NCBI GenBank assembly: GCA_021846045.1
Contig: JAJZCM010000014.1
Coordinates: 1-37,468, forward strand
Source of the DNA: a bacterium
GTDB taxonomy: Bacteria; Elusimicrobiota; Elusimicrobia; UBA1565; UBA9628
Reading direction: 5' to 3'
Length of the DNA: 37,468 nucleotides
Part shown: positions 69 through 23,063 of the stretch, in pieces
Layout of the letters: the number at the start of each line of letters is the position of its first letter
How positions within the stretch are numbered: the first letter of the stretch is position 1
Notes under the pieces: model-generated
The model's database searches: none
What the model saw: the letters and a program-made list of their open reading frames with translations, nothing else
What the model was told of the DNA's origin: nothing
Program-made: the position numbers and the translations under genes

Positions 69-111
69 GTTGTCGTACTGAAAAAACGGGAACGCCGCAA
101 ATCCGCAACTA

Positions 112-237
112 CTCACGTCACCCCGACAAAAGTCGGGGTCCAGAGCAACGATTTTCTGGCCGCTCTCCAACAAACTTGGAAGCGGCACTTCCTCGCCTAC
201 GCTCGGTCGGATTCCGGCTTTCGCCGGAATGACGAAC
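112..237. repeat. Palindromic repeat, long variant with a 51-nt extra module
   Basis: Inverted relative to the copies at 7614-7699 and 13878-13963. Outer stem CGTCA (116-120) pairs with TGACG (230-234). Arms: CCCCGAC/GTCGGGG (121-138), CCAG/CTGG (140-159) and ATTCCGGC/GCCGGAAT (211-230). Between the second and last arm lies an insertion, 160-210, which forms its own hairpin (CCGCT 160-164 with AGCGG 181-185, TCCAA with TTGGA, loop CAAAC). The rest of the insertion (189-208) matches the 37-bp repeats near 12446 and 23027 with two differences in 20. It separates cpaB from the next pilus gene. Confidence 0.85.
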
Positions 238-2049: not shown

Positions 2050-3024
2050 CTAAAACTTAGTGGTCAAAGTAAATTGATTGACAGTTCCCAACGCCCCCAT
2101 GGGAACAAAAGCGTAATCAACCCCAAGGCCGTATCCAAAAGCGGCGGAGGTGTAGAAACCAAGGCCCAAGCTGATGCCGCTGACCGCATTAAGATTAATG
2201 GCCGGCGAACTTGGAGTCGTAATCGCCGTATAGTTATCGGCTTCAAAATATCCCGCGCGAAAAGCCAGCTGCCCAATCTCTAAATATTCTTCAGGAACGG
2301 TAAATTCCACGCCCACGCCAGGACGCGGGATATCCCCGGCGAATTGGTGAACTTCAAAACTCAATTTAAAAAAATCGTTCGGGACAATCGCCACTCCGGC
2401 CCGCATTGTCGATCCCACGATGTATTGGCTGGCGCCGAAATTTTGATAGGAAGCTCCCAGGCTCAGCCAATCATTGGGTTTGACGATAATTCCGACGTCT
2501 CCGACCAGACTGTCTGAAATATCCCCGTTATAATCTTGGTGAACCTCGCGCAAGGTCCCTCCCAAAAAAATACGCTCATACCAGAACGAGCGCGCAACCG
2601 ACACGGCCCCGTACCCGTTATTGACTTGAACGTTGAAGTTGGAAAGAGGCACTCCGTTTTGACCGCGAACGTCGAAATTATTGTCCGACATGTAGGAACC
2701 GCTAAATCCAAAAACCGTTTGTCCCACCGGCTGGGCATACGCCATGTAGACGGGTGCCTGAACCCCTTGGATGTATTTCAGATAGGAATAAGAAAATTCG
2801 CGTTCATCGGTCATCGCCAGCCCCGCCGGGTTCCAGGTAATGGCGTCAACCCCTGAGGCCAAGGACACAAACGACTGCCCCATGGCCATCGCGCGCGCCG
2901 ACCCTTGCGAAATATCCAAAAAAGCCGCGCCTCCGGTTCCGGCGCCGGAACTCAGGGCCCACGCAGAGCCAGGAATAGCCATAAAAACCAGAAAAAAAAG
3001 GGACTGTCCCCCTTTTTTATTCAT
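2050..3024 (-). CDS. PorV/PorQ-family outer-membrane beta-barrel protein
   Basis: A 324-aa protein with signal peptide (about 1-23, ending WALSS). It shows the PorV/PorQ family pattern: FLDISQGSARAMAMGQSFVSLA near residues 34-55 and ITWNPAGLA near 62-70, then alternating beta strands and a C-terminal strand ending in Phe, as outer-membrane barrels do. In Bacteroidota PorV acts in the type IX secretion system, passing cargo across the outer membrane; many other phyla have homologues of uncertain role. Its start codon overlaps the stop of the upstream giant FlgD-repeat protein by 4 nt (ATGA), so the two are translationally coupled and likely act together, the large protein being a candidate cargo. 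Confidence 0.85.
   Translation of the reverse strand: MNKKGGQSLFFLVFMAIPGSAWALSSGAGTGGAAFLDISQGSARAMAMGQSFVSLASGVDAITWNPAGLAMTDEREFSYSYLKYIQGVQAPVYMAYAQPVGQTVFGFSGSYMSDNNFDVRGQNGVPLSNFNVQVNNGYGAVSVARSFWYERIFLGGTLREVHQDYNGDISDSLVGDVGIIVKPNDWLSLGASYQNFGASQYIVGSTMRAGVAIVPNDFFKLSFEVHQFAGDIPRPGVGVEFTVPEEYLEIGQLAFRAGYFEADNYTAITTPSSPAINLNAVSGISLGLGFYTSAAFGYGLGVDYAFVPMGALGTVNQFTLTTKF
2992..3018. repeat. GGGACTGTCCC palindrome in the porV start region
   Basis: An A-run, GGGACTGTCCCCC and a T-run form an imperfect inverted repeat. It overlaps codons 3-11 of the porV-like gene, encoding part of its signal peptide. Same core as the palindromes at 7201-7234 and 7315-7339. Confidence 0.6.
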
Positions 3025-7340: not shown

Positions 7341-9116
7341 TTACATTTTCTCGGGCGCGGAAACGCCGATGAGACCCAGCCCCTCTTTGATCAAAGCGCG
7401 AACCCCTGCGCACAAATAAAGCCGGGCTCGGGATAATTCCAAATTCCCGGGGTCCACGACCCGGCATTTTTCGTAAAAGGGGTGAAAAAGGCCGGCCAAC
7501 TCCAAAATATAGTTGGCCAAGGGATGGGGCGAGAGTTCTTTTTGGACGGTCTTTAGGACTTCCGGAAACCATGCCATTTTAACCAACAGCGCCCGCTCTT
7601 CCAAAGTCGAAATTAACTGCGCAGGTTCGTCATTCCGGCGAAAGCCGGAATCCAGAAGATCGCTACTCTGGACCCCGACTTTCGTCGGGGTGACGTGAGC
7701 ATTTCCGATAGAAGGGTTATTTCCCTTGCCCTCAAAAATGCCCTGTATTTTAGCCTCGTCAAAAATCGAGCAAATGCGCGCGTGGACGTATTGGCAGTAA
7801 TAAACCGGGTTTTCGGAAGTCCTTTTTTTAGCGAGCTCTAAATCAAAATTCAGATGAGAATTCGGGGTCCGCTGGGCGAAGAAAAACCGGCAGGCGTCTT
7901 TTCCGACTTCGTCAATCACCTCTTTAAGGCGGACAAATTCGCCGGAACGCTTGGACATCTTGACCGGCTCTTTTCCCCTAAAAAGAAGTATCAACTGATG
8001 GACGATGGCATGGAATGAATTTTCAGGATGGCCCAAGGCCGCAATAGAGGCCTTCATGCGCGGGACATACCCGTGATGGTCGGCCCCCAAAATATCGATC
8101 AACTCCGAAAATCCGCGGGAATATTTGTTCTCGTGATAGGCGATATCGGCCAAAAAATAACTGGGGCGCCCATCTTGACGGATAAGAACCCGGTCCTTGT
8201 CGTCTTCCGATGAAGACGCGGTGCCTGCCTTCGCCCGTTGTTTACGGGCAGCGTGCGCGGCCTCCTCAGGGGAAGGCCTTGAGGCCGTGCCCAGCCAAGT
8301 CGCGCCGTCTTTCTGATAGACCATCCCGCGTTTTTTGAGAAGCTCCAAGGTTCGGTCCAAGGCTTTTGACTCATGCAGTTCGGATTCCCTAAACCAGCGG
8401 TCGAAAGAAACTCCGAAAGACTTCATATCGTCTTGATGGGTCTTGAGAAGGCGCAAGGTTCCCTCTTTCGCCATTGCGTCCTCATTCCAGGAGTCCGCTT
8501 CGGGCGGGAAAGATTTCGCTAAATCCGCGACATAATCCCCGTGATAGCCGTCTTCGGGAACCTCTTGATTGCGGCGCCGCGCCCACAGGGATTTGCCGAA
8601 TTTTTGAATTTGATTTCCCGTGTCGTTGACGTAGTATTCCGCGCATGCGTCATGCCCCAAGCGCCTTAAAATCCGAACCAGAGAATCTCCCAAGGCTCCA
8701 CCGCGGCCGGAGGCCAGATGAAGAGGCCCCGTGGGATTGGCGGAAACAAATTCAATTAAAATTTTTTGCGCAGCGAGGGTCTCATCCCGTCCGTAAGACT
8801 CCGGATGCGCAACGATGGACTCGAGATTTTTCCAGAGAACTTGCCTAGAAAGAGTCAAATTGACAAATCCGGGCGAAGCGGCCTCGGCAATCTCTATTTG
8901 ACTCAAGCTGGAAAGACTCTTCGCTAATTCCCCCGCCAAGTCAAGAGGATTTTTTTTATTCATCTTGGCGATCTGAAGCGGACAGACTAAACTTAAGTCG
9001 GCCTTCACATGAGCCGGAGCCAAGGACAAAACCAATTCTTCCGGAAGAGACAGGTCTTGCGCCTTGGCCCAAGACCGGATTTTTTGCTCAAGTTCTTCCC
9101 TGAAAGAGTTGATCAC
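7341..9116 (-). CDS. argS: Arginine-tRNA ligase, with a palindromic repeat inserted in frame
   Basis: A 591-aa class I aminoacyl-tRNA synthetase that charges tRNA-Arg. N-terminal Arg-specific domain (about 1-110), HIGH-type motif HLASG at 133-137 after SANPTGP, KMSKRSGEF at about 385, and the DALR anticodon-binding domain beginning ENPVYYCQYVHARI at about 440. I choose the GTG at 9116: GTGA overlaps the rsfS stop, whereas upstream ATG starts would lie wholly inside rsfS and add 44 foreign residues. Within the DALR domain, residues about 473-501 (reading HVTPTKVGVQ...DSGFRRNDE) are the translation of a dispersed palindromic repeat, not of synthetase sequence. The frame stays open through it and the domain resumes with LEERALLVKMAWFPEV, so the enzyme is probably functional. 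Confidence 0.93.
   Translation of the reverse strand: MINSFREELEQKIRSWAKAQDLSLPEELVLSLAPAHVKADLSLVCPLQIAKMNKKNPLDLAGELAKSLSSLSQIEIAEAASPGFVNLTLSRQVLWKNLESIVAHPESYGRDETLAAQKILIEFVSANPTGPLHLASGRGGALGDSLVRILRRLGHDACAEYYVNDTGNQIQKFGKSLWARRRNQEVPEDGYHGDYVADLAKSFPPEADSWNEDAMAKEGTLRLLKTHQDDMKSFGVSFDRWFRESELHESKALDRTLELLKKRGMVYQKDGATWLGTASRPSPEEAAHAARKQRAKAGTASSSEDDKDRVLIRQDGRPSYFLADIAYHENKYSRGFSELIDILGADHHGYVPRMKASIAALGHPENSFHAIVHQLILLFRGKEPVKMSKRSGEFVRLKEVIDEVGKDACRFFFAQRTPNSHLNFDLELAKKRTSENPVYYCQYVHARICSIFDEAKIQGIFEGKGNNPSIGNAHVTPTKVGVQSSDLLDSGFRRNDEPAQLISTLEERALLVKMAWFPEVLKTVQKELSPHPLANYILELAGLFHPFYEKCRVVDPGNLELSRARLYLCAGVRALIKEGLGLIGVSAPEKM
7614..7699. repeat. Four-way-junction palindromic repeat inside argS
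   Basis: An 86-bp repeat matching 13878-13963 at 84 of 86 positions. Its core folds with no unpaired base at the junction: outer stem CGTCA 7628-7632 with TGACG 7691-7695; arm 1 TTCCGGC/GCCGGAA with GAAA loop (7633-7650); arm 2 TCCAG/CTGGA with a 12-nt loop (7651-7672); arm 3 CCCCGAC/GTCGGGG with TTTC loop (7673-7690). It lies inside the coding region of argS without breaking the frame. Confidence 0.92.
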
Positions 9117-11335: not shown

Positions 11336-12426
11336 AATTGAATGGGAAGCGGGTGAATCCAGCCTTGGAGAGACACGGCATGGCGGATTTTACCGTTGAG
11401 GCATTCCGAAAAAGCCCGTGAGGGATCTTTCTCCGCCAATTTTCTAAGTTTGGCCGCTTCGGAATACTTCCGGTCTTCCGAACAGGCATCCGAGACATAA
11501 ATCAAGCGTTCAAGGTCTCCCATGTTGAAGGCCCCCAAGGTGTGATTGCGAATCGCTTTCAAAACTTCCGGGGTTTTAATTTCAAACATTCGTTTTGACA
11601 AATCCTCGCTGATATAAGCGTGAAGAAGAATCGGCTGATAAGCGGAAATTTCTCGAAACAAGGGAACGCGCAGGCGGCGTTTCTGGCAATAGGATTTCAT
11701 TCCCGAAATGGGAACGCTTCTCCCCGCGTCATGCAAAAGCCCAGCCAAAGCCGCCTCGAAAGAATCAATCCCCCAGATGGGAGCAAGTTTGCGCGCAAGG
11801 GTCGCGACCGAAATGGTGTGAGTCAAACGCTCGGCTTTTAAAATTTTTCCAAGCGCCGGAATAATCGTCGTTCCGTAAAGACCTCTCTTTAGAATCCGCT
11901 TAAGCGCCGCCGGAGAAACCTCACGAGACCTGTCTTCGCCCATCAGAAATCCAACCCGTAAATCCGTCGAGGAAATTTCCGGCATTGCGCTTGAAATCAC
12001 GTTGAAAAAACGCGGGATCCGACCCTGAAAAGGCGGCCTCGCCGCCGTCCACCAATGGGCCAATTCCCGAAGACGGGGAGGGTTTTTCCACTCCTTAAAA
12101 CGCAGGGCTAAATCCGAACCGACCACGAAATGGATTTCAGAATCGGGATTTTCTTTTTTTAACCGGCCTAGAACATCAACGGTATAAACGAGCCTGCCAG
12201 CAAGCATTTCCACCCTGCTTATTTCCGCCCCGGGAAAAGCGAGTTTCGCCATTTGAAACCGGTCCTCGGGCAAAGCCCATGATTTATTTTTCCACGGCGA
12301 ATGATAGGAGGGAATAATAATAGTCCGGTCCGGATGAATTTTCTCCTTGGCCGCCTCTACAAGAGCACGATGCCCCTGATGCGGCGGATCGAAGCTCCCC
12401 CCGAAGACGAGAATTCTTTCCCTCAT
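11314..12426 (-). CDS. nadD: NadD-YqeK fusion: nicotinate-nucleotide adenylyltransferase plus HD hydrolase
   Basis: A 370-aa two-domain protein. Residues 1-195 are NadD, which makes nicotinate adenine dinucleotide from NaMN and ATP: GGSFDPPHQGH near 8-18 and ISSTDLR near 152-158. Residues about 205-370 are a YqeK-type HD domain: H in RLTHTISV, LLHDAGR, and later NHT...D, a metal-binding set known in YqeK to hydrolyse Ap4A symmetrically. Such fusions occur in some lineages; most bacteria encode them apart. I start at ATG 12426, preceded by GGAAGGAAG; the longer reading frame begins at TTG inside a repeat. The LytR_C gene starts inside its last codons. Confidence 0.9.
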   Translation of the reverse strand: MRERILVFGGSFDPPHQGHRALVEAAKEKIHPDRTIIIPSYHSPWKNKSWALPEDRFQMAKLAFPGAEISRVEMLAGRLVYTVDVLGRLKKENPDSEIHFVVGSDLALRFKEWKNPPRLRELAHWWTAARPPFQGRIPRFFNVISSAMPEISSTDLRVGFLMGEDRSREVSPAALKRILKRGLYGTTIIPALGKILKAERLTHTISVATLARKLAPIWGIDSFEAALAGLLHDAGRSVPISGMKSYCQKRRLRVPLFREISAYQPILLHAYISEDLSKRMFEIKTPEVLKAIRNHTLGAFNMGDLERLIYVSDACSEDRKYSEAAKLRKLAEKDPSRAFSECLNGKIRHAVSLQGWIHPLPIQLWNSIIL

Positions 12427-12445
12427 GGCTTCCTTCCGTACAAAC

Positions 12446-12482
12446 TCTGGAGCCAACCATTTCCTCGCTTAGGCTCGGTCAT
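12446..12482. repeat. 37-bp dispersed repeat, copy upstream of nadD
   Basis: Identical over 37 bp to 23027-23063 (upstream of metG). In both places it begins exactly 20 nt before the start codon. It contains GAGCC and GGCTC as short inverted arms. Its outer 20 bases match 189-208 inside the long palindromic repeat with two differences. Confidence 0.9.
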
Positions 12483-13866: not shown

Positions 13867-13877
13867 AAAATAAATGG

Positions 13878-13963
13878 TAACTGCCCAGGTTCGTCATTCC
13901 GGCGAAAGCCGGAATCCAGAAGATCGCTACGCTGGACCCCGACTTTCGTCGGGGTGACGTGAG
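13878..13963. repeat. Four-way-junction palindromic repeat, intergenic copy
   Basis: Differs from the copy inside argS (7614-7699) at 2 of 86 positions, same orientation. Outer stem, three arms and loops are all preserved. It occupies most of the 136-nt gap between the GT4 and thiolase genes; nothing else is seen there except a GGAG ribosome site before the thiolase. Confidence 0.92.
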
Positions 13964-14002
13964 TAATTACAATAAATGACGCAATAAATCGGAGATTTCC
14001 TC

Positions 14003-21468: not shown

Positions 21469-23007
21469 TTAAGCCTTGGTTTTTCTGGGGAAAAGGGGCG
21501 GAGCTTTCAGAATTTCGTGAGTCGCCGCGGTCTTTCCGGCCAAGATTTCTTCCGCAGTGACCGGGCGCGGCAATTGGCGCACTCCCAATTGAGATTGAAC
21601 CTTGGCCGCCGTCTGCGGCATGAAAGGTTCCAGCCAGCCCATTACAATTCGAATGGACCATACCAAATTAAAGAGAACGGGCTCGACTTTTTCGGGACTG
21701 GTCTTTTGCAGTTTCCACGGCGCCTGGGCGTTTACGTATTGGTTAAGACTGGAGATCACCGACCAAATAATGGACAAGGCTTCCGAGAAATTGAGATTTT
21801 CCATCGCGACGTGAATTGCCGAAGTTTTTTCCGCCCATTGTTTGGGATAGTCATTTTTTTCCGGATCGCTTTGGGACGGAAGTTTGCCGTTTAGAAAACG
21901 GTCGGTCATCTCGACTACGCGGGAAATGAGATTGCCCAAGTCGTTGGCCAAATCAGAATTATATCTGCGGCGCAGGGCTTCTATTGAAAAATCTCCGTCT
22001 TGCCCGAAAGGCATTTCGCGCAGAAGAAAATATCGAAATGCATCAACGCCGAATTCCCGAGTCGCCTCGTAGGGATCGACAAAATTCCCTTTCGATTTGG
22101 ACATTTTTTGCCCTTCCACCGTCCACCAGCCGTGGGCAAACACTTTTTTTGGAAGAGGAAAGTTTAAGGCCAAAAGCATCGCCGGCCAGATGACCGCATG
22201 GAAACGATAGATTTCCTTTCCCACGATGTGAATGTCCGCCGGCCAAAAATCAGCGGAGGGGTTCATCACCCTGTCGTCGAAAACCGCTGACACGTAATTC
22301 AGAAGGGCGTCAAACCACACATACACCGTTTGCGTTGGGTCTCCTGGAACCGCAATTCCCCATTTAACCTTCGCGCGGGAAACGGAGATATCCTGAAGGC
22401 CCGCTTTGACGAAATTGACGATCTCCGAAGCTCGGTGAGAGGGGGAAAGAAAATCCGGGGTTTTTTGATAATGGGAGAGAAGCGCGTCCTGATACTTAGA
22501 AAGCTTAAAGAAATAGCTTTCCTCCTTGACCCTCTCCAAGGGCTTCCTGCACTCGGAGTTCGGACAAAGCTTGAGATTTTTTTCATTGGGAAGAATTTCC
22601 TTCTCGGTCCAATAGGTCTCGCAGGACAGGCAATAATACCCCTCGTAAAAACCTTTGTAGATGTCCCCCGATTTTAAAAGACGCCCGAAAACCTCTTCAA
22701 CGCAGCGAGTATGCCGTTCTTCGGTCGTCCGGATAAAATCATCGTGGCGAATGTCAAGATGCTTCCAAAGCTCCCTGAATTTTTCTGAAATCTTATCCGC
22801 ATAGTCTTTAGGGTCAAGCCCTAAAGCGCGCGCCGCCTCTTCAATCTTGAGGCCATGCTCGTCGGTCCCAGTCAAAAAATGAATTTCCCGGTTTTGGCTT
22901 CGGTAAAACCGCGCCAAAACGTCGGCGGCAATGGTCGTATAGGCATGCCCGATGTGCGGAGCGGCATTGATGTAATAAATTGGCGTCGTAATATAGATTT
23001 TTTTCAC
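21469..23007 (-). CDS. metG: Methionine-tRNA ligase
   Basis: A 512-aa class I synthetase charging tRNA-Met. HIGH at 18-21 (AAPHIGHAYTT), TGTDEHGLKI near 47-56, a zinc knuckle of four Cys (CLSC...CPNSEC, about 125-155), and KMSKSKG at about 300-306. It ends after the anticodon domain, without the C-terminal EMAP-type tRNA-binding extension some bacteria have. I choose GTG at 23007: AAGGA lies 5 nt upstream and the protein then begins KKIYITTPIYY as the family does. The longer frame starts at a TTG inside the 37-bp repeat and adds ten unrelated residues. holB ends 60 nt upstream; the gap is largely filled by the repeat. Confidence 0.95.
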   Translation of the reverse strand: MKKIYITTPIYYINAAPHIGHAYTTIAADVLARFYRSQNREIHFLTGTDEHGLKIEEAARALGLDPKDYADKISEKFRELWKHLDIRHDDFIRTTEERHTRCVEEVFGRLLKSGDIYKGFYEGYYCLSCETYWTEKEILPNEKNLKLCPNSECRKPLERVKEESYFFKLSKYQDALLSHYQKTPDFLSPSHRASEIVNFVKAGLQDISVSRAKVKWGIAVPGDPTQTVYVWFDALLNYVSAVFDDRVMNPSADFWPADIHIVGKEIYRFHAVIWPAMLLALNFPLPKKVFAHGWWTVEGQKMSKSKGNFVDPYEATREFGVDAFRYFLLREMPFGQDGDFSIEALRRRYNSDLANDLGNLISRVVEMTDRFLNGKLPSQSDPEKNDYPKQWAEKTSAIHVAMENLNFSEALSIIWSVISSLNQYVNAQAPWKLQKTSPEKVEPVLFNLVWSIRIVMGWLEPFMPQTAAKVQSQLGVRQLPRPVTAEEILAGKTAATHEILKAPPLFPRKTKA

Positions 23008-23026
23008 GGTTTCCTTTTGCACGGAA

Positions 23027-23063
23027 TCTGGAGCCAACCATTTCCTCGCTTAGGCTCGGTCAT
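23027..23063. repeat. 37-bp dispersed repeat, copy upstream of metG
   Basis: Identical to 12446-12482. It starts exactly 20 nt before the metG GTG, the same distance as from its twin to the nadD ATG, and ends 4 nt from the holB stop codon. Confidence 0.9.

Follow-up and report, generated by a model that had tools for sequence, protein, structure and literature searches.

The window, meaning the whole 37,468-nucleotide stretch analysed here, belongs to a draft metagenome assembly (2.0 Mb, 93 contigs, 97% complete) from an organism that its ArgS relatives place in the Elusimicrobiota. It carries argS, which contains an in-frame copy of a dispersed palindromic repeat and a second in-frame insertion, and two more copies of the repeat lie elsewhere in the window:

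104..237, plus strand: a third, longer copy of the repeat, with about 50 bp of extra repeat in its middle and the right end lost
7341..9116, minus strand: argS, arginine--tRNA ligase (TIGR00456 above cut-off), probable start GTG at about 9116
7613..7706, minus strand: 94-bp copy of the repeat within argS, in frame, encoding GNAHVTPTKVGVQSSDLLDSGFRRNDEPAQL
8217..8282, minus strand: second in-frame insertion in argS, unrelated to the 94-bp element (66 nt, 22 aa, SRPSPEEAAHAARKQRAKAGTA)
13877..13970, minus strand: intergenic 94-bp copy with an exact 8-bp duplication, AATAAATG, at 13869-13876 and 13971-13978

The initial annotation had described a near-identical 86-base repeat shared by argS and the intergenic site. 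The repeat is real: positions 7614-7699 and 13878-13963 agree at 84 of 86 bases, and argS reads through its copy, as had been claimed. The extent given was too narrow, and alignment of the stretches fetched around the copies defined a unit of 94 bp, GTAACTACTCACGTCACCCCGACGAAAGTCGGGGTCCAGAGCAGCGATCTTCTGGATTCCGGCTTTCGCCGGAATGACGAACCTGAGCAGTTAC (7613-7706 and 13877-13970). The unit begins with GTAACTRCTCA and finishes with TGAGCAGTTAC, and the 94-bp copies bear terminal inverted repeats (GTAACTACTCA / TGAGCAGTTAC), as a miniature inverted-repeat transposable element (MITE) does. The element contains two inverted CGTC-type REP hairpins, and a strong hairpin is predicted on both strands (z about -4 to -5.5). 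The consensus layout, CGTC-ATTCCGGC-GAAA-GCCGGAAT-CCA, consists of a CGTC tag, an 8-bp stem, a 4-base loop and a CCA tail; the first two stem positions are A and T in one hairpin (ATTCC) and not in the other (ACCCC), which departs at the second stem base. Sequence and fold had been thought to look unlike the Rickettsia elements. That view was not borne out: judged by the published class description, the inner hairpins fit the CGTC-1 REPs, which include Rickettsia RPE-6 and dRS3 (PMC3733652).

Full-length copies occupy roughly 45-60 sites in this single Elusimicrobiota genome. A DNA search of the genome, in which 40 of 122 candidates were scored and 41 matches listed, returned about 40 near-full copies among the scored candidates. 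The 25-nt half-palindrome GTCATTCCGGCGAAAGCCGGAATCC gave 90 matches at up to 3 mismatches, and its reversed control gave 0. Copies of the 94-bp form deviate from the consensus at about 5-6 of 94 bases, and across 44 genomes of the family this form is abundant in one species only, that of the window, which upholds the earlier suggestion of recent spread. A congener (G002) holds older relatives that share these ends and measure 105-106 bp; an 8-bp duplication can still be read in one of them. In a 145-bp form of the element, a second repeat contributes 51 additional bases. A 60-bp repeat (GACCGAGCCTAAGCGAGGAAATGGTTGGCTCC...) is present in the window at 12423-12482 and 23004-23063, where it overlaps or immediately precedes the start codons of a nadD-like gene and metG; in L032 similar DNA stands ahead of a start codon, and some copies of the main element contain such DNA as a nested, in-frame unit of 51 bp. 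Other CGTC dimers (L063 7573, L067 2518, L085 2512, L129 2505 and L090 2573) belong to another element, whose ends resemble (T/C)TAGTGTAGTGATTC... / ...GAATCACTACACTAG, so the hairpins ride at least two transposon-like families in this genome.

The flanks of the element point to transposition. Among the 45 copies of exactly 94 bp, the flanking 8-mers match at 7 or more of 8 positions in 33 (chance about 0.0006 per copy), and exactly in 23. The lengths of exact abutting repeats peak at 8 bp (23 copies), other exact lengths being rare. Direct repeats of 8 bp beside 33 of 45 copies indicate that the unit inserted in the manner of a transposon. Together, element and duplication amount to 102 nt, or 34 codons, and the reading phase is thereby kept. 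DNA alignment with two to four congeners revealed insertions of 102 nt in pheS, ctaA, a YdjC-family gene and pgl, that is, empty sites in the relatives; AAATTGAG is duplicated exactly at the ctaA insertion and TTTTTGCG at the pgl insertion. The congeners' versions of all four genes, and of argS, are without the insert. At a different position, the YdjC-family homologue of G002 (L151) appears to have a further in-frame insertion of about 117 nt.

Misjoins can arise at short repeats, and in a 93-contig draft an assembly artefact at the repeat might be suspected. We regard this as extremely improbable, given that for at least five genes the sequences on either side of the element come from one gene and remain collinear and in frame, that exact target duplications stand beside many copies, and that the conserved genes resume at the correct residue after the insert. 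The position of the duplications also bears on the proposal, made for GTAG REPs, that the hairpins are moved by a RAYT-type (HUH tyrosine) transposase. The inner hairpins are indeed REP-like. The 8-bp duplications, however, adjoin the outer ends of the element rather than the hairpins, and RAYT/IS200 chemistry is not known to yield target duplications. Nor has a RAYT link been reported for CGTC REPs (PMC3733652), and this disfavoured route is in our judgement highly unlikely.

Within argS, the copy differs from the consensus at 6 positions, 5 of them in the outermost bases, and its flanking 8-mers match at only 4 of 8 positions. Because its own ends and duplication are eroded, we infer its arrival by transposition from the family to which it belongs. 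The residues of the ArgS insert are missing from four congeners, and the 97%-complete assembly yielded no second argS, leaving 7341..9116 as the sole copy. In the DALR region the insert sits behind the first helix, close to where the domain begins, in a linker that varies in length across the Elusimicrobiota and holds a different palindrome, GGGACAGTCCC, in the congeners. The variability of this linker prevents the definition of an exact empty site. An AlphaFold model of ArgS (42-sequence alignment) had a mean pLDDT of 90, but most of the insert scored about 46-54 and is accordingly predicted to form a disordered loop in the length-variable linker. Palindromes of the type GGGACTGTCCCC recur in the window at 3000, 7212 and 7322, and in the congeners the ArgS linker is filled by a palindrome of this kind. 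The second insertion, at 8217-8282, is bordered by a 9-bp near-duplication (GGCACGGCC / GGCACCGCG) and is likewise absent from the four congeners. It lies in the catalytic region and has a GCCCGTAAACAACGGGC hairpin; a 43-nt relative is present at G000 C29:1742 (L032) and another in G004.

The element has one open frame of six, VTTHVTPTKVGVQSSDLLDSGFRRNDEPEQL. In that frame it would add about 34 amino acids to the products of at least five conserved genes, including two tRNA synthetases. As with the RPEs of Rickettsia, the insertions are in frame within conserved proteins: those of argS, pheS, ctaA, the YdjC-family gene and pgl. Family scans placed PheS (TIGR00468), ArgS (TIGR00456) and Pgl (TIGR01198) above cut-off and also confirmed COX15-CtaA and YdjC. 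Those of the affected genes that were searched for in the genome gave one match each, with argS and pheS single-copy. The PheS insert interrupts a conserved stretch between HHxARxMxDTFY and LLRTHTS, a more surprising site than the ArgS linker. Among other proteins, a C1 peptidase and the unassigned protein at L123 carry the element in parts that vary among congeners, and at L101 it is near the N-terminus. The claim that a mobile repeat is carried as peptide by an essential enzyme is supported by relatives that are without the insert, by the 8-bp duplications and by four further clean in-frame cases. The insert would presumably be translated, and the enzyme carrying it active.

When the flanks of the 51 complete copies were joined in silico, 12 copies proved to be in frame in open reading frames, 34 intergenic and 5 ORF-breaking. 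The single large ORF-breaking case is a pair of neighbouring genes separated by the element, and the remaining four concern short ORFs that may be spurious. This 12/34/5 distribution is of the kind expected if insertions that break the frame are filtered out, and such a filter presumably operates.

Persistence of the inserts within essential single-copy enzymes might suggest that ArgS and PheS benefit from the peptide and that selection has retained it as a new protein part. We consider this very unlikely: the same peptide is found in unrelated proteins, and disorder is predicted for the loop in argS. The substitution pattern is near neutral, with a synonymous share of 11/57 in genic copies and 39/169 in intergenic copies against a neutral expectation of 24%, and selection on the peptide was therefore rejected. 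Stop-creating singletons in intergenic copies arose at the rate expected by chance (1 observed, 0.8 expected), giving no support to selection that keeps the frame open in those copies.

A search of this genome for a long autonomous element bounded by the same ends turned up none; the seven additional stretches whose ends were exact contained only short derivatives or half-elements. Repeated IS copies are often missing from draft metagenome assemblies, and a search for the IS66 transposase (PF03050) gave 0 matches in this genome (G000) or its genus (four congeners), where the draft assembly may have lost one. PF03050 is present in 12 of 235 genomes of the class. In one genome of the same class (G155), the IS66 locus L286 has the ends GTAACTACTCAGGTCA / GTAACTACTCAGGTTC, and L276 and L288 have GTAACTACTCAG / GTAACTGCCCAGGTCC around a full PF03050 transposase; the corresponding ends of the element are GTAACTACTCACG / GTAACTGCTCAGGTTC. 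For the two loci of G155, with ends GTAACTACTCAGGT and GTAACTACTCAG / GTAACTGCCCAGGT, one of them enclosing a full IS66 transposase of 441 codons, agreement with our element reaches 11-12 of 13 bases. A confamilial IS66 element, with ends GTAAGCGTTCAGGGG, agrees at 10 of 13. Neither of the two G155 elements with matching ends has a clear duplication of its own. IS66 elements are reported to make 8-bp duplications and to have ends that begin with GTAA (PMC11946415).

Since the terminal repeats of IS66 loci in another Elusimicrobiota genome are almost identical to those of the element, we read it as an IS66-type MITE. It is likely that the repeat is a 94-bp MITE in which an inverted pair of CGTC-type REP hairpins lies between IS66-like ends, moved in trans by an IS66 transposase; mobilisation of this type appears the likeliest route. 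The main competitor is a MITE mobilised by a DDE transposase outside IS66 whose insertions are likewise accompanied by 8-bp duplications, its IS66-like ends being coincidence or convergence. The lack of a PF03050 gene in the genus leaves room for such an enzyme, as does a transposase search that covered PF03050 only; the agreement of the ends with the two G155 loci and with the confamilial element counts against it, and we judge it improbable. Under IS66-type mobilisation, an IS66-family transposase would act in trans on the non-autonomous 94-bp element, and every insertion, with the 8 bp that it duplicates, would lengthen the target by 102 nt (34 codons). With one open frame of six, a genic insertion would survive only in the sense orientation, in the open phase and at a site that the protein tolerates. 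Other genic landings would presumably be lost.

Protein-coding palindromes were made famous by Rickettsia. The Rickettsia RPEs resemble the present element in being palindromic mobile repeats of about 100-150 bp that lie in frame in unrelated conserved genes and also between genes. They belong to another phylum, and the 8-bp duplications and empty sites measured here contrast with an RPE target duplication listed as unknown (PMC2229807). The CGTC-1 REPs, such as Neisseria dRS3 and R. conorii RPE-6, share the CGTC tag, 8-bp stem, 4-base loop, CCA tail and arrangement in inverted dimers, whereas here the dimer is carried as cargo within an element that has terminal inverted repeats and is flanked by target duplications. 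Intragenic CGTC REPs are reported to encode 20-30 amino acids, some of them within tRNA synthetases, and no transposase was found linked to the class; they are described from five phyla, the Elusimicrobiota not among them (PMC3733652). IS66-family insertion sequences and MITEs have the GTAA ends and 8-bp duplication in common with our element, whose ends are close to those of Elusimicrobiota IS66 loci; unlike them, it lacks a transposase gene of its own, and none of the IS66 family was found in the assembly. Correia/NEMIS, ERIC, YPAL and other bacterial MITEs with open frames, compared here by description only, are also short, structured, non-autonomous and sometimes fused in frame (PMC2229807, PMC10969869), but they are other elements in other organisms.

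In-frame palindromes are thus already known from Rickettsia RPEs and CGTC REPs; what is new is the phylum, the measured duplications with empty sites, and the candidate transposase. The case presents CGTC-type hairpins of the known kind within a MITE whose duplications can be measured. On the way in which protein-coding palindromes move, this genome offers well-defined ends, 8-bp duplications, relatives with empty sites and a family of candidate transposases. Tentatively, and with the odds against it, CGTC-type REPs in general, including Rickettsia RPE-4 and RPE-6 and Neisseria dRS3, might spread as MITE cargo through DDE transposases such as IS66; some of these elements might in addition be built to be compatible with coding, their length plus the duplication being divisible by three and a single frame being open. 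If true, spread as MITE cargo would explain why these REPs lack a linked, dedicated transposase. With the ends, duplications, empty sites and candidate transposase described here, and with the insert present in two single-copy tRNA synthetases, both the movement of the repeat and the tolerance of the insert become directly testable.
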